Below are positions 7,871 through 15,966 of a stretch of 36,541 nt of DNA, piece by piece. How positions within the stretch are numbered: position 1 is the first letter of the stretch; every line of letters starts with the position of its first letter. Origin of the DNA: Anaerolineales bacterium (lineage in GTDB: Bacteria; Chloroflexota; Anaerolineae; Anaerolineales; Villigracilaceae); assembly GCA_017985935.1 (NCBI GenBank), contig JAGNWT010000037.1, positions 1 to 36,541 of the forward strand, in the 5' to 3' direction. Below the pieces are notes generated by a model that saw only the letters and a list, made by a program, of their open reading frames with translations, made no database searches and had not been told where the DNA came from. The translations under genes were made by a program, and so were the position numbers.

Positions 7871-10800
7871 ATGCATATTCAGAAGATCAGAACGTTTCTT
7901 GGAAATTACCTGGTTTACATAACGACAGTGATCGCACTGATCCTGCTGTCGAATCTTGCTGTGGGGTTTTTGTTAACAGACCCTGGGGTTGCTCTTCGAG
8001 TAAAAGCCTATAAAGTTTGGGTTGACCTGCTCCTGATCGGGCTTGCTATTTTTTTAATTCTCAGAAAACAGAACAATGCATTGAGGTCCATGGAAGGGAA
8101 TTTTTCCGACCTCTTTGAGTCCACCACCGAAGGAATCTTCCGTTCCACACCAAATGGACGCTTTTCTGAGGTTAATGCGGCGATGGCAAGTATTTACGGT
8201 TACGCCTCACCTCAAGAAATGATCGACGATATTATAGACATCAGCACGCAGATCCATCACTCGCCGGAAAGCCGGAAAGCATTCACAGAGTCTCTGATGC
8301 TCAACGGGAAGGTCGAAAATTTCGAGGTGCGGAATCGAAAAAAAGACGGCACATTGATCTGGACCTCCACAAATGCTCGAATTGTAAAAGATAAGAACGG
8401 ACGGGTTCTCTATTTTGAGGGGTTTGTCACAGATATCACCAAACAAAAAAAAGCGGAGATCGCTCTACAAGACGCTGAAGCGCGTTATCGAATGCTCGTC
8501 GAAAAACTGCCAGCGGTAGTTTTTATGGATATTTTCAACGACCCGCAGAGTACACAATATATGAGTCCGCGCCTGAAAGATCTTGTTGGATACACCCCGG
8601 AAGAATGGGTAGCTGGCGAAAACCTGTGGGAAAACTCATTGCACCCAGACGACAAAGAGCGAGTACTTGCTGAAGACAGGCGGACCGACAAGACAGGCGA
8701 GCCTTTTCGTATTGAATATAGAATACAACACCGCGACGGGCACTATGTATGGGTAAAAGAAGACGCCTCGATCATTCGTGATGAAGATGGCACCCCCCTG
8801 TTTTGGCAGGGCATAATGCTGAATATTTCAGAGCAAAAGCGATCTCAGGATATCCTTCAGCGACGAGACTCTATCATCAAGGCGGTGGGTTTTTCGGCGG
8901 AACAATTCTTGAAATCCTCCAACTGGGAAGACAATATTATTCAGGTTCTTGAAAGATTGGGGGAAGCCGCACAAGTCAGCCGTGTTTACGTTTTTACCAA
9001 ATCGATCTCTTCGGATGGACGGGTCTTGGTAAGCCAGATATTCGAATGGTGCAACAAAGGGATACGACCGCTGATCGATGATGAACGCCTTAGAAATGTA
9101 GATATGTCGGGGCTTGGATATTCTCGCTGGATCGGTCTTCTCGATCAAGGACTGCCTGTTTACGGGTCGGTGAATGATTTCCCGGTTCAAGAACGCCCGA
9201 TGCTAAACGAACAGGATATTCGCTCACTTGTATGCATACCGCTTCAAATCGGCAGTGACTGGTGGGGATATATTGGCTTCGATGAATGCACCTATGAAAG
9301 AGAGTGGACCGAGGTGGAGATCGAAGCTCTAAAAGCCGCCGCCAATACTCTGAGCGTTGCATACGAAAGAAATTTATCGGTGACCGCTTTATCCAAAAGC
9401 GAAGCAAGTTATCGCGGACTCTTCGACAGCATCCACGATGCAATCTACATCCAGAACAGACAGGGGATTTTCCTGGATGTAAATGATGGCGCCGCAAACA
9501 TGTATGGCTATCCCAAAGAATTCTTTTTGGGCAAGTCGCCAGAGTTCCTAAGCGCACCCGGCAGGAACGACCTTGAAAAGACCAATATCTCACTCCAAGA
9601 GGCTTTTAGCGGCAAGGCTCAACAATTTGAGTTTTGGGGCAGGCGGAGCAATGGTGAAGTATTCCCAAAGAGCGTGCGCGCATTCAAAGGGACTTATTTT
9701 GGTCAGGAGGTTCTGATCGCCATTGCGCAGGATATAACTGCTCAAAAGAATGATGAAGAAAATTTACAGAGACAACTAAAAGAACTGACGGTCCTGCACT
9801 CCATCGCCATTGTAGAGTCCACCGCTCGCAATACAGACGAACTGATCAAACGGGTCACAGATATCATCGGAGAGATGCTCTATCCCGACAATTGCGGGAT
9901 TCTGCTCATGAACCAAAAAGGGGATGGCTTGTATCCTCACCCATCCTATCGTGGGATCAACGCCGCTGAGTTGATTCTCATCACCCCATTATCCCGGGGC
10001 GTGGCGGGAAAAGTGGCTTCCACAGGAAGGTCCATTCGGATCGGGGATGTATCGCAGGAGCCCGCATACTACGAGGCAACTGAAGGCATTCAATCTGAGC
10101 TATGCATCCCGATCCAAAGCGATACAAAGATCATCGGCATTCTAAATGTTGAAAGCAAAAAACTAAACGCATTCACAGAGACCGACGAACAACTACTCTC
10201 CACCGTTGCGGGCGGATTAGCGAACGCCTACGAAAGGATTCAACTCTTCGAGCTTGAACAGGGGCTCCGTGAACAGGCTGAGATCCTGCGTGAAGCAACT
10301 GGAGAACTAACCTCATCTTTTAATCTGGAAACTCTCCTTGAGAATGTATTCATCTCAATGGAAAAACTGATCAAGTACGACAGCGGCTCGATCGAATTTA
10401 TCAAGGGCGACTATCTTGAGATCGTGGCTGGAAAGAATATCCCCTCAGAAATGATTGGGAAAAAGAATTTCTATGACCCTCAAAAATGGGGAGACCTGAA
10501 CAACCAGCGACAGCCTGTGATCATTGCCGACGTTCAACGTGATCATCGGTTTGAAAAGTTCGAACAAACCAATTTTATTCGCGGGTGGATGGGCATACCC
10601 CTATTCTCCAAAGACACGGTGTTTGGAGTTCTGAATCTTGACAGCCGCATCCCCGACTTTTTCACAGAAGAACACGCGTCCATCGCCCAGACCTTTGCCA
10701 ACCAGGTTTCGATCGCCATTGAAAATGCCCGCTTGTTCGAGGCGGAGCGCCGCCGCCGCATGGAAGCGGAGACACTTAGCCAGGCGACCGCCGCGCTAGC

Positions 10801-12895
10801 AAACACATTGGATATCCACAGTCTATATGAAAACATCCTGGACTGGTTATATAAAATTACCCCGTACGACAGTTCATCCATTCTGATTTTGGAGGGAAAC
10901 AACATTCGCATTTCCGCCTCGCGCGGACTTCCCTTCCCAGACAAAACAAGCGGACGAATTTTCCCTGCCGATAACATTCTATGCAAGATCATGAGCACGA
11001 CCGGCGAGCCGTTGATCATTGACGACTGTGAAGATGATCCTCGTTTTGAAAATTGGGGAGAGATAAATCCACGCGGGTGGATGGGCGTTCCCATGTTATC
11101 ACGCGGACAGGTGATCGGGTATCTGACATTAGACAGTCACACTCCAAACTCTTACACCCAAAATAACGCAGTCGTCGCCCTGACATTTGCCCACCAGGCG
11201 GCGGTCTCACTGGAAAATTCACGGCTGTTCACTGAAACCCGGCAAAGGCTGGGCGAACTGGAGATCGTGAGCAGGGTATCTTATGCGTTGCGCGCCGCGC
11301 GAGATGCAAATGAGATGCTCCCCATTTTATTGAATGAGATCAAAGCCAGTGTTGGAACAAGCTCGGCGGCGATCTGGTTGTTCGATTATCAAAACAACGA
11401 ACTGAGCGCAAGGACCACTTCCGGCTGGTTCGATAATTTATCCAAATCCAACTTCAAAGCCAATGAAGGGATCATTGGAAAGGTTTACTCCAGCGGGACC
11501 AGTTACGATACGATAAGCCAAGCCCATGCAGCCCTTGATAATGAAAAGTTCTTTGGAGAGAATAAAAATGGGATCGCGGTTCCCATTCGCACCGCCACCG
11601 AAACGATCGGCGCGCTTGCCGTGGCCATTCATGCTCCGAACAAGATCAAACCGCATCAGATCCGTCTGGTCACTACCGTGGCTGAGATCGGAGGCAATGC
11701 GATCTACCGATCCAACCTGTACCAGCGCAGTGAGGAGCAGATCCAAAGGCTAACCACCCTGCGGGAATTGGACACTGCCATCTCCTCCAGTCTGGACTTG
11801 CACATAACGCTCGGAATCATGACCGAAAGCCTGATCACAAAAATGGGCGTGGATGCCGCCGCCGTTCTGGTCTTCAACACAGACAGTCAGTTGTTGGAAT
11901 ATTATGCCGCAAAAGGATTTGCAAATCGCGAAGCTCTCCGCGTGCCGGTCAGTATTGGCGACAGCCTCGCCAGCCAGATCCTTCTCAACCGCAAACCTTT
12001 GTACATCCGCGAGATCAAGAAGGCCGCGTCTGAGTTGAATCTCTCCGGTCCGATCTTGACCGAAAAATTTTCAAGCTACTACGCCACCCCCCTGTTTAGC
12101 AAAGGCGCGGCGAGAGGAATCCTCGAAACCTATTTCCGCAACCCTTTCTCCCCCACCGCAGATTGGGTAGACTTCCTGCACACGCTCGCAGGGCAAGCCA
12201 GCATTGCCATTGACAATGCTCAACTCTTTGAAAATCTTCAACAGTCGAACCAGGAGATTTCTCTTGCCTACGATACAACCTTGGAAGGATGGGGAAAGGC
12301 GCTGGAGTTGCGCGATAAAGAGACTCAAGGACACACGCGCCGCGTCACAAACCTGACCTTGGACCTGGCGCGGAAAATGGGCATTCCCGAATCTGATTTA
12401 TTGCATATCCGCCGCGGAGCGTTGCTGCACGATATCGGCAAAATGGGCATCCCGGATAATATCCTGCGCAAGAAGGGCCCACTCACCAATGCTGAGATCA
12501 CAGAAATGCGCAAGCATCCGCAATACGCGTATGACCTGCTCTCGCCGATCTCCTACCTGCGGCCAGCCATGGAAGTTGCCTATTCCCATCACGAATGGTG
12601 GAATGGGAACGGTTACCCGCGCGGACTCAAAGGCGAGGAGATTCCCCTCTCGGCTCGCATCTTCGCCATTGTAGACGTTTGGGACGCGCTCTCCTCAGAT
12701 CGCCCTTATCGAAAGGCGTGGCCGAACAAGAAGATCTGGAAATACCTTGAAGGACTTTCCGGAAAACAGTTCGATCCGCGCATTTATGAAATGTTCTGCA
12801 AAATGATGGAATACGATAAGGAAGCGAAAAGCGCAGGAACAAATAAACATCCGGCGAAAAAGACGGTTAAGAAAGCAATAAAAAAGAAGCGATGA
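7871..12895 (+). CDS. Membrane multi-sensor protein: PAS, six GAF domains, HD-GYP
   Basis: This is a predicted c-di-GMP phosphodiesterase with an unusually long sensory region (1674 residues). Two membrane segments lie at about 13-37 and 49-66. PAS domains follow at about 78-195, 203-320 and 510-630, with a GAF domain between the second and third at about 335-500. Five further GAF-like domains run from about 650 to 1455. The C-terminal HD-GYP domain (about 1465-1640) has HDIGK near 1519 and HHEWWNGNGYP near 1571-1581, so the metal-binding and GYP motifs look intact. The tail is Lys-rich. Domain borders are by eye. No strong Shine-Dalgarno precedes the ATG. The ligand is unknown. It stands alone between the tRNA cluster and convergent tyrS. 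Confidence 0.88.
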   Translation: MHIQKIRTFLGNYLVYITTVIALILLSNLAVGFLLTDPGVALRVKAYKVWVDLLLIGLAIFLILRKQNNALRSMEGNFSDLFESTTEGIFRSTPNGRFSEVNAAMASIYGYASPQEMIDDIIDISTQIHHSPESRKAFTESLMLNGKVENFEVRNRKKDGTLIWTSTNARIVKDKNGRVLYFEGFVTDITKQKKAEIALQDAEARYRMLVEKLPAVVFMDIFNDPQSTQYMSPRLKDLVGYTPEEWVAGENLWENSLHPDDKERVLAEDRRTDKTGEPFRIEYRIQHRDGHYVWVKEDASIIRDEDGTPLFWQGIMLNISEQKRSQDILQRRDSIIKAVGFSAEQFLKSSNWEDNIIQVLERLGEAAQVSRVYVFTKSISSDGRVLVSQIFEWCNKGIRPLIDDERLRNVDMSGLGYSRWIGLLDQGLPVYGSVNDFPVQERPMLNEQDIRSLVCIPLQIGSDWWGYIGFDECTYEREWTEVEIEALKAAANTLSVAYERNLSVTALSKSEASYRGLFDSIHDAIYIQNRQGIFLDVNDGAANMYGYPKEFFLGKSPEFLSAPGRNDLEKTNISLQEAFSGKAQQFEFWGRRSNGEVFPKSVRAFKGTYFGQEVLIAIAQDITAQKNDEENLQRQLKELTVLHSIAIVESTARNTDELIKRVTDIIGEMLYPDNCGILLMNQKGDGLYPHPSYRGINAAELILITPLSRGVAGKVASTGRSIRIGDVSQEPAYYEATEGIQSELCIPIQSDTKIIGILNVESKKLNAFTETDEQLLSTVAGGLANAYERIQLFELEQGLREQAEILREATGELTSSFNLETLLENVFISMEKLIKYDSGSIEFIKGDYLEIVAGKNIPSEMIGKKNFYDPQKWGDLNNQRQPVIIADVQRDHRFEKFEQTNFIRGWMGIPLFSKDTVFGVLNLDSRIPDFFTEEHASIAQTFANQVSIAIENARLFEAERRRRMEAETLSQATAALANTLDIHSLYENILDWLYKITPYDSSSILILEGNNIRISASRGLPFPDKTSGRIFPADNILCKIMSTTGEPLIIDDCEDDPRFENWGEINPRGWMGVPMLSRGQVIGYLTLDSHTPNSYTQNNAVVALTFAHQAAVSLENSRLFTETRQRLGELEIVSRVSYALRAARDANEMLPILLNEIKASVGTSSAAIWLFDYQNNELSARTTSGWFDNLSKSNFKANEGIIGKVYSSGTSYDTISQAHAALDNEKFFGENKNGIAVPIRTATETIGALAVAIHAPNKIKPHQIRLVTTVAEIGGNAIYRSNLYQRSEEQIQRLTTLRELDTAISSSLDLHITLGIMTESLITKMGVDAAAVLVFNTDSQLLEYYAAKGFANREALRVPVSIGDSLASQILLNRKPLYIREIKKAASELNLSGPILTEKFSSYYATPLFSKGAARGILETYFRNPFSPTADWVDFLHTLAGQASIAIDNAQLFENLQQSNQEISLAYDTTLEGWGKALELRDKETQGHTRRVTNLTLDLARKMGIPESDLLHIRRGALLHDIGKMGIPDNILRKKGPLTNAEITEMRKHPQYAYDLLSPISYLRPAMEVAYSHHEWWNGNGYPRGLKGEEIPLSARIFAIVDVWDALSSDRPYRKAWPNKKIWKYLEGLSGKQFDPRIYEMFCKMMEYDKEAKSAGTNKHPAKKTVKKAIKKKR

Positions 12896-12934: not shown

Positions 12935-14146
12935 TTACTTCACTCGCAGGAAGCGCCGCTTGCCAACCTGCAACACGCCGGGGTGCGGAAAGACCGCATC
13001 ACCGCGCTCAAGCACTTCGCCATCGAGGCGCACGCCTTTTTGATCGATCAAAGCGCGAGCCTTGCTCTTGCTCTCTGCAAGTTTTGCGGCAAGGATCACA
13101 TCCACAATGGTTTGCCCAGCCTGCAATTCAAATTCGGGCATTTCATCAGGGATCTCCTTCTGCTGGAAGGTCTTGATGAAATTCTCCTGCGCCGACCTGG
13201 CCTCGTCTTCGCTGTAGAAAATGCTGACAATCTCAGAAGCCATCTTCATCTTTGCATCACGCGGATGGAAAGCGCCCGAAGCCACATCTTTCTCGATCTG
13301 GTCGATCTCGTGTGGACTCCAACGGGTGACAAGGCGCATGTAGGTGCCCATCGCAGAATCAGGAACCGACATCAACTTGCCGAACATGTCATTCGCTCCG
13401 GTATTGATCGGAACGATGTTGCCCGTGGACTTGGACATTCTCTGCACGCCGTCTGTGCCGGGCAAAATGGCGGTGATGATCCCCACCAAAGGCTTTTGCC
13501 CAAGCGCCTCTTGCAATTTGCGCCCAGCCACAATGATGTTGAACAACTGATCAGAGCCGCCCACCTGCACATCGGTCTCCATTGCCACAGCATCATAACC
13601 CTGCATCAAAGCATAAAAGGTTTCATGCAGAAAGATCGGCTCGCCCTTATCGAGGCGGTTGGAGAAATTATCGCGCGCTAAAAATTGCTGAACGGTAAAG
13701 TTCTGCCCAAGGCGGATCAGATCCACCAAGGTGAGTTTGGAAAGCCACTCTCCGTTGTAGCGGATCTTTGTCTTGTGGCGGTCAAGCACGCGGAAAGCCT
13801 GCTCGGTGTAGGTCAATGCATTTTCGTTGACCTTCTCCTCGGTCAAAATGGGACGCGCCTTGTTCTTATCTGAGGGGTCCCCCACCAGCGCGGTGTAACT
13901 CCCAATAAGGAAGGTTACTTCATGCCCAAGATCTTGGAACTGGCGCAGCTTGCGCATGGTAATTGTATGTCCGAGATGCAGGTCAGTGGATGTGGGATCG
14001 TAACCGCAATAGACACGCAGGGGTCTATTTTCTTTTTCAGCCAGCAACAGGCGTGAACGCAGTTCGGCGGTCATGGCCTTTTTAAGATCTTCATCGCCGT
14101 ATTCCGTGCCTTGCATCAACAACTCAACTTGTTCTTCAACGTTCAT
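12935..14146 (-). CDS. tyrS: Tyrosyl-tRNA synthetase
   Basis: TyrRS charges tRNA-Tyr. The product is 403 residues, the length of the bacterial TyrZ-like subgroup. The class I signatures are HLGH at residues 57-60 and RMSKS near residue 238, the KMSKS counterpart. A C-terminal S4-like RNA-binding domain (about 340-403) includes KARALIDQKGVRLDG. The ATG has AGGAG 6 nt upstream. Upstream lies a leader with a Tyr-rich peptide and terminator, so expression is predicted to respond to charged tRNA-Tyr through ribosome-mediated attenuation. No T-box motif is visible. Confidence 0.96.
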   Translation of the reverse strand: MNVEEQVELLMQGTEYGDEDLKKAMTAELRSRLLLAEKENRPLRVYCGYDPTSTDLHLGHTITMRKLRQFQDLGHEVTFLIGSYTALVGDPSDKNKARPILTEEKVNENALTYTEQAFRVLDRHKTKIRYNGEWLSKLTLVDLIRLGQNFTVQQFLARDNFSNRLDKGEPIFLHETFYALMQGYDAVAMETDVQVGGSDQLFNIIVAGRKLQEALGQKPLVGIITAILPGTDGVQRMSKSTGNIVPINTGANDMFGKLMSVPDSAMGTYMRLVTRWSPHEIDQIEKDVASGAFHPRDAKMKMASEIVSIFYSEDEARSAQENFIKTFQQKEIPDEMPEFELQAGQTIVDVILAAKLAESKSKARALIDQKGVRLDGEVLERGDAVFPHPGVLQVGKRRFLRVK

Positions 14147-14170
14147 AACATTCTCCTGTGGAGTGAATAG

Positions 14171-14207
14171 ACAAACAAAAACGCGCCCGCGATGATGAGG
14201 GCGCGTT
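14171..14207 (-). terminator. Attenuator terminator in the tyrS leader
   Basis: On the minus strand AACGCGCCC (14207-14199) pairs with GGGCGCGTT (14188-14180) around a 10-nt loop. TTTTTGTTTG follows. This GC-rich 9-bp stem with a T-tract is a clear intrinsic terminator. It lies between the leader-peptide stop and tyrS, so it must be bypassed for tyrS expression from the leader promoter. Confidence 0.88.
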
Positions 14208-14223
14208 CATAGCACACCATCGC
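14189..14223 (-). promoter_or_regulatory. Predicted antiterminator helix of the tyrS leader
   Basis: On the minus strand GCGATGGTG (14223-14215) can pair with CATCATCGC (14197-14189) over 9 bp, including one G-U. The second arm is the loop of the terminator hairpin and abuts its 3' arm with no spare nucleotide. Both helices are therefore unlikely to form together. ACACC (14244-14240), inside and just after the last Tyr codon, can pair weakly with GGTGT (14218-14214) as a protector helix. Confidence 0.6.
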
Positions 14224-14230
14224 TTTGGTC

Positions 14231-14281
14231 TTATGGGCGGGTGTAATAATAATAGCGGTTGGTGGTGACTTTTTCAAACAT
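14231..14281 (-). CDS. Tyrosine-rich leader peptide of tyrS (16 aa)
   Basis: This small open frame reads MFEKVTTNRYYYYTRP and stops at TAA (14231-14233). Codons 10-13 are four consecutive Tyr codons (TAT, TAT, TAT, TAC). It lies 84 nt upstream of tyrS, with an intrinsic terminator between the two. By analogy with the trp, his and phe leaders, ribosome stalling at the Tyr codons when Tyr-tRNA is scarce would favour readthrough into tyrS. Its ATG falls at the predicted transcription start of the upstream promoter, so it may be translated from a leaderless RNA. The frame and its placement are seen directly. The function is inferred. Confidence 0.82.
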   Translation of the reverse strand: MFEKVTTNRYYYYTRP

Positions 14282-14287
14282 GCGCGT

Positions 14288-14316
14288 ATTATACAACAAG
14301 AATTTCACTGCGCCAA
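14288..14316 (-). promoter_or_regulatory. Promoter of the tyrS leader
   Basis: On the minus strand TTGGCG (14311-14316), a 17-nt spacer and a perfect TATAAT (14288-14293) form a good promoter. The -35 box overlaps Leu-Ala codons at the 3' end of the lipoprotein gene. The predicted start is near 14281, at the A of the leader-peptide ATG. Confidence 0.8.
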
Positions 14317-14979
14317 ATTGAAAGAGAAGCTCCACGGACCCAACACCGAGTAGAACTCGGGGCTGTAAACGATCTCTTCAGCCTGGGCTTGGGTCATCTC
14401 CGGCGGGAAGCTCAAGATCTGCATGGTGAGCACACCGTTCACATCCACACAATCGAGCGTAATGCCAATGCCGCGGTCGATCATTGCCTGCTGGATCTTC
14501 GGCATGTACACCGAACAATACTCGTCCTCGCGCGGCATGGAAGCAATCGCCTCGATCACAATGGTCACATTGGTCAGGTCGGCATCGGGCGGCACAAGAA
14601 AGGTCAGCATATCGCAGCGCAAACCCGCCACGCCCTCAGCAGGTTCCTGCAGGCTCACAAGAGTGGTGCCATATTCCTCAACAAGGATTCCGCCGTAGGT
14701 CAGGCTGGCAGATGAAATCCCCCAATCCGATTTATCTGGCAGACTAAAGCACACATCCGCATTCACATCTTTTCCGTCCACCCAGGCCCGATCCATATGG
14801 ACTTCGATGCCGCTCGCGGTCTGGTTGGGTTGCGCGATTTGCACCTGCGCAGTGGGGTACGAAGCGGGATCAACATACGCCGGCTCGGTCGCCATTTGAG
14901 GCAAGACCACACCGGGGTTTTGAGCAGGCAAACTGCATGCGGTCAGGATCAATGCCGCCAAGAGGATGATTCTTTTCAT
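14305..14979 (-). CDS. Putative lipoprotein of unknown function
   Basis: The 224-residue product begins MKRIILLAALILTACSLPAQ, a signal peptide with lipobox LTAC and the lipid-attachment Cys at residue 15. The mature part is soluble, with a Pro/Gln-rich linker followed by beta-rich segments. I do not recognise a family. It presumably sits on the outer face of the cytoplasmic membrane after processing by Lgt and LspA, both encoded in this window. AGGAG lies 8 nt before the ATG. It follows the SDR39U1-like gene by 14 nt, so the two are probably co-transcribed. Its end overlaps the tyrS leader promoter. Confidence 0.8.
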   Translation of the reverse strand: MKRIILLAALILTACSLPAQNPGVVLPQMATEPAYVDPASYPTAQVQIAQPNQTASGIEVHMDRAWVDGKDVNADVCFSLPDKSDWGISSASLTYGGILVEEYGTTLVSLQEPAEGVAGLRCDMLTFLVPPDADLTNVTIVIEAIASMPREDEYCSVYMPKIQQAMIDRGIGITLDCVDVNGVLTMQILSFPPEMTQAQAEEIVYSPEFYSVLGPWSFSFNLAQ

Positions 14980-14993
14980 GGATTTTTCTCCTA

Positions 14994-15893
14994 TTATTTT
15001 TTCTTGAACAGATCGGTCAACGCTTCACGCGGACCTTCGAACTGGAACTTGAACCCGGACTCTATCAGCCGTTTGGGTTTGGAATACCGTCCTTCCACAA
15101 TGAGGACGCTCATTTCCCCCAAAAGGGTCCGCAATAAGAAAGCCGGTGTGGGAAACCAATATGGTCGGCGCAAAACTTCGGCAAGCGCGCGATTGAAATC
15201 AGCGCTGGAGGTGGGTACAGGCGCAATGAGATTATATGCCCCGCGCGCGTTCTCGTCTGCGATCAAGTGGCGGATCGCACCCACCCAATCGTGGATATGG
15301 ATCCAGGGCATGCAAAATTTTCCGCTGCCAATGGGTCCGCCGACAAATAATTTTACGGGCAAAGCCATCAGCGAGAGCAAGCCGCCTTGCGCGTCCAGCA
15401 CTGGGGCAGTTCGCGCTACCACACGCCGCACACCCAAGTCTTCTACAGACTGGGTTGCAGCTTCCCAATGAACTGTGACCTGCGCGAGGAAATCATCTGC
15501 GGGCGGGGTGGATTCGTCGGCAGGGTCACCATGCAATCCATAATGATTGATGCCCGAAGCCTGCACAAAGATCTTTGGGCGCCGGGTCGCTTCCAGAACC
15601 GCTTGAGCAAGCGCGCGTCCAGGATTGACCCGCGAATCGATAAAATCCTGCTTTGTGGCAGATGTCCACGGCCAGGAGGAAAGAGATCTGCCGGCGAGGT
15701 GAATGATCACATCCATTTCATTGACGAGATGCCCCCACCCCGTGGTTGTCTTCGCATCCCATTGAACGGTTTGTGTGCCCGGGTGCGCTGATGCACCGCG
15801 CGTGAGGATGAAAACCTGATGACCATCCTCTAAGAAAGATTTCGTGAGGGCGCCTCCAAGAAAACCTGAGCCGCCCGCGATCATGATATTCAT
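14994..15893 (-). CDS. TIGR01777/SDR39U1 family NAD(P)-dependent epimerase-like protein
   Basis: This extended short-chain dehydrogenase fold protein resembles YfcH and SulA-type epimerases. I start it at the ATG at 15891-15893 (MNIMIAGGSGFLGGAL), which has AAGGAG 8 nt upstream, giving 299 residues. The frame extends nine codons further upstream without support. The nucleotide-binding GGSGFLG is at residues 7-13. The FVQASGINHYG stretch and the C-terminal DUF1731-like part (RPYWFPTPAFLLR..) fit the family. The substrate is unknown. It is the first gene of a short unit with the lipoprotein. Confidence 0.9.
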   Translation of the reverse strand: MNIMIAGGSGFLGGALTKSFLEDGHQVFILTRGASAHPGTQTVQWDAKTTTGWGHLVNEMDVIIHLAGRSLSSWPWTSATKQDFIDSRVNPGRALAQAVLEATRRPKIFVQASGINHYGLHGDPADESTPPADDFLAQVTVHWEAATQSVEDLGVRRVVARTAPVLDAQGGLLSLMALPVKLFVGGPIGSGKFCMPWIHIHDWVGAIRHLIADENARGAYNLIAPVPTSSADFNRALAEVLRRPYWFPTPAFLLRTLLGEMSVLIVEGRYSKPKRLIESGFKFQFEGPREALTDLFKKK

Positions 15894-15966
15894 TTCAAAA
15901 ACTCCTTGTGAGCCGGTCAATGCGAACGTAATTAATTTGGGCTTCCGTTGTCTGATTAACTGGCAG

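Follow-up and report, generated by a model that had tools for sequence, protein, structure and literature searches.

The window analysed here, a 36,541-nucleotide stretch of DNA from an Anaerolineales bacterium of the family Villigracilaceae, carries on its minus strand the tyrosyl-tRNA synthetase gene tyrS, preceded by a leader of roughly 105 nt. Further 5' on the same strand lie a lipoprotein-like ORF (14305-14979; so described from its N-terminus, with no family match) and, beyond it, a TIGR01777 oxidoreductase gene (14994-15920), and in many relatives these two retain the same order upstream of tyrS. A 1674-residue PAS/HD-type sensor protein is encoded convergently with tyrS on the plus strand (7871-12895), and many relatives have a homologue of its C-terminal part at the equivalent place by tyrS. 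The gene and the coding and promoter-like features around the leader are as follows, the Tyr codons and the AGGAG being read directly from the sequence:

14311..14316, minus strand: -35-like hexamer TTGGCG, 17 nt from the -10 box, within the 3' end of the lipoprotein-like ORF
14288..14293, minus strand: -10 box TATAAT, 6 nt 5' of the leader ATG
14231..14281, minus strand: leader ORF MFEKVTTNRYYYYTRP, 16 codons, with ATG at 14281-14279 and a TAA stop at 14233-14231
14243..14254, minus strand: four tandem Tyr codons, TAT TAT TAT TAC, the candidate sensor codons
14157-14153, minus strand: AGGAG ahead of the tyrS start
12935..14146, minus strand: tyrS, tyrosine--tRNA ligase (TIGR00234 equivalog, 360.3 bits against a cut-off of 113.8)

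An initial annotation of this DNA had proposed a 16-codon frame with four tandem Tyr codons, which we found on the minus strand at the positions it gave; the promoter-like elements, the 6-nt gap to the ATG and a helix pairing 14244-14240 with 14218-14214 go beyond that annotation. The window's own genome contains a single match to the leader. In 80 relatives the leader ORF is 12-17 residues long, and across 98 loci a Tyr codon stands at positions -4, -5 and -6 before the stop in 79, 90 and 72 cases, respectively, with 197 TAT and 96 TAC codons used within the last 14 codons.

The promoter-like site is similarly widespread. Of 82 separate leaders, 80 have an exact TATAAT 6-9 nt 5' of the start codon, the gap being 6 nt in 70; among shuffled sequences there were 43 of 1640, even with one mismatch permitted. 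A TTGACA with 1-3 mismatches could be placed in 74 of 80 relatives, which, as a raw count taken over the best of five spacings (15-19 nt) with no chance control, is weak. The spacing between the TATAAT and the start codon predicts a leaderless transcript, starting at or beside the ATG, and a TAtaaT signal of leaderless genes in Chloroflexi is described in the excerpted text of PMC3160421.

To define how far this arrangement extends, we used a detector requiring at least two Tyr within the last nine ORF codons, followed by a terminator. TyrS is present in 135 of the 150 genomes of the same family; 122 loci from part of these genomes were listed, and 120 were examined after two on short contigs had been dropped. 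The loci with named records come from Anaerolineales and other Chloroflexota assemblies, for example Candidatus Villigracilaceae (L223) and Candidatus Desulfolinea nitratireducens (L255). A Tyr-rich ORF end and a terminator, the two elements that the initial annotation had expected in orthologous leaders, were present together at 110 of the 120 family loci, in 21 of 25 genera, each with a predicted ORF bearing a run of codons for the very amino acid that the controlled gene serves. Of the ten loci that the detector missed, L014 has an interrupted Tyr run, L082 and L090 retain the hairpins with one Tyr, and the other seven (L032, L072, L078, L085, L329, L340 and L357) have no element. In a close relative (genome G044; L210/L032) the leader region is absent, a natural deletion that leaves about 38 nt between the end of the lipoprotein-like gene and tyrS. 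Of 100 shuffled sequences, 6 scored positive for Tyr with the detector, and of 100 reverse complements none did; in a residue control on 60 of 139 Tyr-positive loci any other residue was found in at most 24 (the maximum being Arg), against 60 of 60 for Tyr by construction.

From the last codons of the ORF onward, the leader has the segments of three predicted helices that share strands:

14240..14244, minus strand: segment 1, predicted 5' strand of a protector helix, ACACC (last Tyr codon and Thr codon)
14214..14218, minus strand: 3' strand of the protector helix, GGTGT (pairing counts in 57 sequences)
14215..14223, minus strand: segment 2, antiterminator 5' arm GCGATGGTG (pairing counts in 57 sequences, swap test)
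14199..14207, minus strand: terminator 5' arm AACGCGCCC (sequence, hairpin energy, 57-leader alignment)
14189..14197, minus strand: segment 3, antiterminator 3' arm CATCATCGC, in the terminator loop and abutting the terminator 3' arm
14180..14188, minus strand: segment 4, terminator 3' arm GGGCGCGTT (sequence, hairpin energy, 57-leader alignment)
14177..14181, minus strand: T-tract of the terminator, seen in the sequence

The intrinsic terminator, a hairpin with 9-bp GC arms (-18.2 kcal/mol), lies with its T-tract between the leader ORF and tyrS as first described, and so does the alternative helix (14223-14215 with 14197-14189; 9 bp including one G-U, -12.3 kcal/mol), which uses the terminator loop and has no linker to the terminator 3' arm.

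The initial annotation had suggested looking for covariation in the helices, and for the alternative helix both a swap test and pair counts indicate co-evolution. In the swap test, the duplex energy of segment 2 with its own partner was compared with that obtained after re-pairing partners among genomes (93 distinct pairs, 5000 permutations). Segment 2 with its own loop and 3' arm reached a mean of -14.47 kcal/mol against -12.03 +/- 0.23 kcal/mol for permuted pairs, with 0 of 5000 permutations as low, and the same test by genus (19 genera) gave -15.22 against -11.30 +/- 0.60 kcal/mol (0/5000). Three swap controls showed no effect: segment 2 against the terminator 5' arm, the loop against an upstream segment, and segment 2 against sequence lying downstream. 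When segment 2 was reversed, as a control for composition, it slightly beat its permutations (-10.82 against -10.38, 30/5000; 109/5000 at the genus level), so that composition accounts for a minor part of the signal. The protector helix also passed the swap test, more weakly between genera (65/5000 as low).

Pair counts were made on an alignment of 57 distinct leaders confined to genera g1, g8, g14 and g17, which have the GGCGCGTT arm, with the others left out. In these leaders the antiterminator had 95.0% of cells paired, against 13-61% when the strands were slid, and 8 sequences had A-U in place of G-C at a single pair; the protector had 90.1% of cells paired, against 21-58% when slid, with two pairs altered on both sides (11 cells in total). 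The terminator had 99.4% of cells paired, and with its arms nearly invariant no covariation was found in it among the 57 leaders. For antiterminator and protector alike, all 500 shuffles were exceeded in how many cells had changed, in percentage paired and in covariation score; neither changed pairs nor pair types were more numerous in the same leaders than in the shuffles (472/500; 322 and 112/500). More distant genera have other sequences with the same logic retained, as in L095, L084, L064 and L059. A covariance model made from these 57 leaders and applied to 61 whole genomes of the family gave a single match in each of 22, all directly 5' of tyrS by coordinates. It had no match in the other 39 of the 61, including genera with a known distant form (e.g. 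g23); the model is therefore narrow, and extra copies of the distant form are possible.

On this evidence, the tyrS leader very probably acts by ribosome-mediated transcription attenuation, with the run of Tyr codons as its sensor of charged tRNA-Tyr. The transcript would begin at the ATG or right beside it, and its leaderless ORF would be translated immediately. Under poor charging of tRNA-Tyr, the ribosome would stall on the Tyr codons and mask segment 1, leaving segment 2 to pair with the terminator loop ahead of synthesis of the 3' arm, with readthrough into tyrS. With charged tRNA-Tyr at hand, the ribosome would complete the ORF and leave, the 1:2 helix would capture segment 2, and the terminator would form.

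We weighed this reading against one in which the ORF simply encodes a small protein, under a promoter and terminator of its own, and its Tyr-rich end serves the function of that protein, tyrS being merely downstream. A promoter-like site and a strong terminator are indeed present, and the ORF is widespread; against such a gene, however, the residues N-terminal to the Tyr run vary freely across the 98 loci, the distance from stop to terminator is nearly constant (17-22 nt in 93 of 98 loci), the co-varying alternative helix is given no role, and other genera bear the Tyr run on a different, full-length protein. We consider a free-standing small protein gene very improbable.

To much the same degree, we doubt that the helix between segment 2 and the loop is a pseudoknot that stabilises the terminator. 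The nine core pairs in the window use terminator-loop bases only, which makes the helix topologically an H-type pseudoknot, yet it abuts the terminator 3' arm without a linker, and the best segment-2 duplex takes 3'-arm bases in 98 of 98 loci, at least three of them in 94 (a raw count with no control), so that the two helices cannot both form in full. In silico, then, the antiterminator is incompatible with the terminator, as attenuation would have it; the pairing of leader codons with segment 2 in the protector helix is the weaker element of the model. Least credible of all is that the terminator merely ends transcription of the lipoprotein-like gene, the ORF being incidental: that gene does end at 14305, 98 nt 5' of the terminator, but an exact TATAAT lies in between, and where the upstream gene differs the arrangement is kept, and the Tyr run with it.

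Returning to attenuation, thermodynamic folding sets limits on how the switch could operate. The whole leader did not fold better than shuffled sequences (z -0.83; 39 of 200 shuffles were as good), and minimum-energy folding did not reproduce the switch, the terminator still winning whichever of the four Tyr codons a ribosome was set to occupy. Since the terminator wins at equilibrium, antitermination must be kinetic, set by the order of synthesis. The initial annotation had also held that a ribosome at the stop codon would block the first arm of the antiterminator. With an assumed footprint of 12 nt, the ribosome would reach no further than the second base of the arm, which leaves occlusion alone unconvincing as the cause of termination. 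A protector helix formed after the ribosome has departed would, in this model, be the better account.

T-box riboswitches bind tRNA directly, and they abound in this family: every one of 100 family genomes had matches at E <= 0.001, with 88 above the cut-off. The window's genome has a T-box before a PF01409 (pheS-type) gene (111 bits), together with matches at thrS (88.2 bits) and serS (75.1 bits) that both fall under the gathering score of 93. For the T-box (RF00230), window positions 13950-14420, which take in the tyrS leader, gave no match at E up to 1, and 20 tyrS upstream regions gave none at E up to 0.01. At the gathering score there was none in the window or in 18 tyrS loci; the thrS and serS T-boxes of this genome would likewise go undetected at that threshold. 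The contrast with T-box control drawn in the initial annotation thus holds within the window's genome, where T-box matches were found at thrS, serS and pheS and none at tyrS, and from its sequence tyrS looks like an exception inside a T-box-using genome. No Rfam family, amino-acid leaders included, matched the tyrS leader above gathering; a match to P9 at the leader was rejected as chance (23.1 bits against a gathering score of 43). By eye, no cognate-codon leaders were seen at other synthetases in 20 loci of four genomes; this survey covered only PF00579, PF00587 and PF01409 in five genomes, with Ile, Leu, Val, Met and others outside its scope.

Not all members of the family carry the Tyr run on a leader peptide. 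In genera g3, g12, g13, g16, g22 and g23, and in some relatives, it forms the C-terminus of a protein of ~165 residues (for example KGRYYYSRP or DGMVYYARA), and here ribosomes completing the upstream full-length gene would do the sensing. The protein is weakly similar to a bacterial PH domain, with bPH_6 above cut-off only in L249 (25.1 bits against 22) among five scanned. This small membrane/PH-like gene is found in 32 of the 150 family genomes, mostly beside tyrS (e.g. L255:1923-2423 and L249:1916-2425). It occupies the place that the lipoprotein-like gene and the leader have in other genera, or that the leader alone has in L262, and where the TIGR01777 gene was found flanking such loci it precedes the PH-like gene. 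The PH-like gene starts 6-7 nt after a TATAAT in six of nine loci inspected (L255, L249, L269, L260, L239 and L234); in L240 the spacing fits if the start is taken three codons further in, and in L259 and L263 the start is not at this distance.

Genera g11 and g25 have a PH-like gene with a single Tyr in a YSR-like end (a second, separate Tyr in L328), and in eight loci of these genera the single-Tyr gene is followed by a separate Tyr leader with its own TATAAT. By adjacency count, a YY pair is present in 23 of the 26 PH-like genes that adjoin tyrS without a separate leader, and in none of the ten that have a separate leader or lie elsewhere in the genome. This is no more than suggestive of a dependence of the gene-tail Tyr pair on an adjoining attenuator. 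A gene tree of the PH-like gene, made with slightly different labels, offered only one to two independent contrasts, with labels that are uneven: L329 and L338 count as non-sensor for lack of an attenuator, L072 is unlabelled, and L317, L259, L261 and L263 count as sensor despite lacking an attenuator. As the detector itself requires two Tyr, labels drawn from it would be circular. On a 98-row TyrS tree the states alternate, with 9 changes required for the label of gene tail, at least 6 of them forced by well-supported branches; the tree is quick, and hence rough, and gain is not separable from loss in it. The sensor may thus be interchangeable between a leader peptide and the tail of a PH-like gene, the 16-codon leader being, as we infer, a relic of or replacement for the gene that arose more than once. 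We hold this reading tentatively, at a little below an even chance and no higher on account of the exceptions in the adjacency recount.

Outside the family, a leaderless-type ORF with at least two Tyr or a Tyr-Ser-Tyr motif was found at 11 of 61 loci from other families of the class, one of which (L304) is probably chance; no Tyr leader was found at the other 50, three of which had short or masked upstream DNA. In L299 (family f11), the leaderless-type ORF MNTALNATGYYHCGSARAAHATGGFTAS stands before tyrS and is followed by a terminator-like hairpin with a T-run. Eight outside-family loci have a second leader design, in which a Tyr-Ser-Tyr motif, as TACTCGTAT or a near form, stands right before a GGGGCG...CGCCCC hairpin. 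These loci (L172, L174, L176, L183, L275, L298, L308 and L309) are all upstream of tyrS; seven of the eight have a leaderless-type short ORF, and a GC terminator with a T-tract lies further downstream. The second design aligned poorly, and covariance modelling was for that reason limited to the family leaders.

Attenuation of aminoacyl-tRNA operons is reportedly the subject of Lopatovskaya 2010. Classical attenuators on synthetase genes are listed in the excerpted text of PMC1262725 for pheST in gamma-proteobacteria and for trpS and leuS in Streptomyces, and the same excerpt places tyrosine under T-box control. As far as that text goes, the tyrS leader resembles these attenuators in having a short ORF with cognate codons, an antiterminator, a GC terminator and a synthetase gene downstream; it differs in its Tyr codons and tyrS, its occurrence in Chloroflexota, its predicted leaderless start and the tail of a full gene as a possible sensor. 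With the attenuators of the trp and his biosynthetic genes (PMC1183508) and the peptide His-leader attenuators of his genes in Firmicutes (PMC2965389, PMC9413887), as these appear in extracts of the papers, it shares the 1:2, 2:3 and 3:4 logic and the tandem codons close to the ORF end, whereas gene, amino acid and phylum differ. Excerpts of PMC2494555 report a T-box riboswitch on tyrS of Bacillus subtilis, as well as T-boxes in two Dehalococcoides genomes. The B. subtilis system has the same gene, transcription antitermination and, we infer, the same signal, the charging of tRNA-Tyr; unlike it, the leader described here has translated codons as the proposed sensor, and no T-box was found at it. 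Among the matches listed from the open-licence literature, seen as excerpts, neither a tyrS attenuator with Tyr codons nor any peptide attenuator from Chloroflexota appeared. Attenuation of synthetase genes is already known, and what is new is the tyrosine/tyrS variant, not the kind of mechanism.

If the attenuator reading is true, tyrosine and tyrS, in a T-box-rich phylum, would join the genes under classical attenuation. Within a single genome, some synthetases would then be governed by tRNA-binding riboswitches and another by a translating ribosome. A leaderless start, as predicted, would tie the first ribosome to the polymerase with no Shine-Dalgarno site involved, and the gene-tail versions would offer a testable route to the origin of leader peptides.
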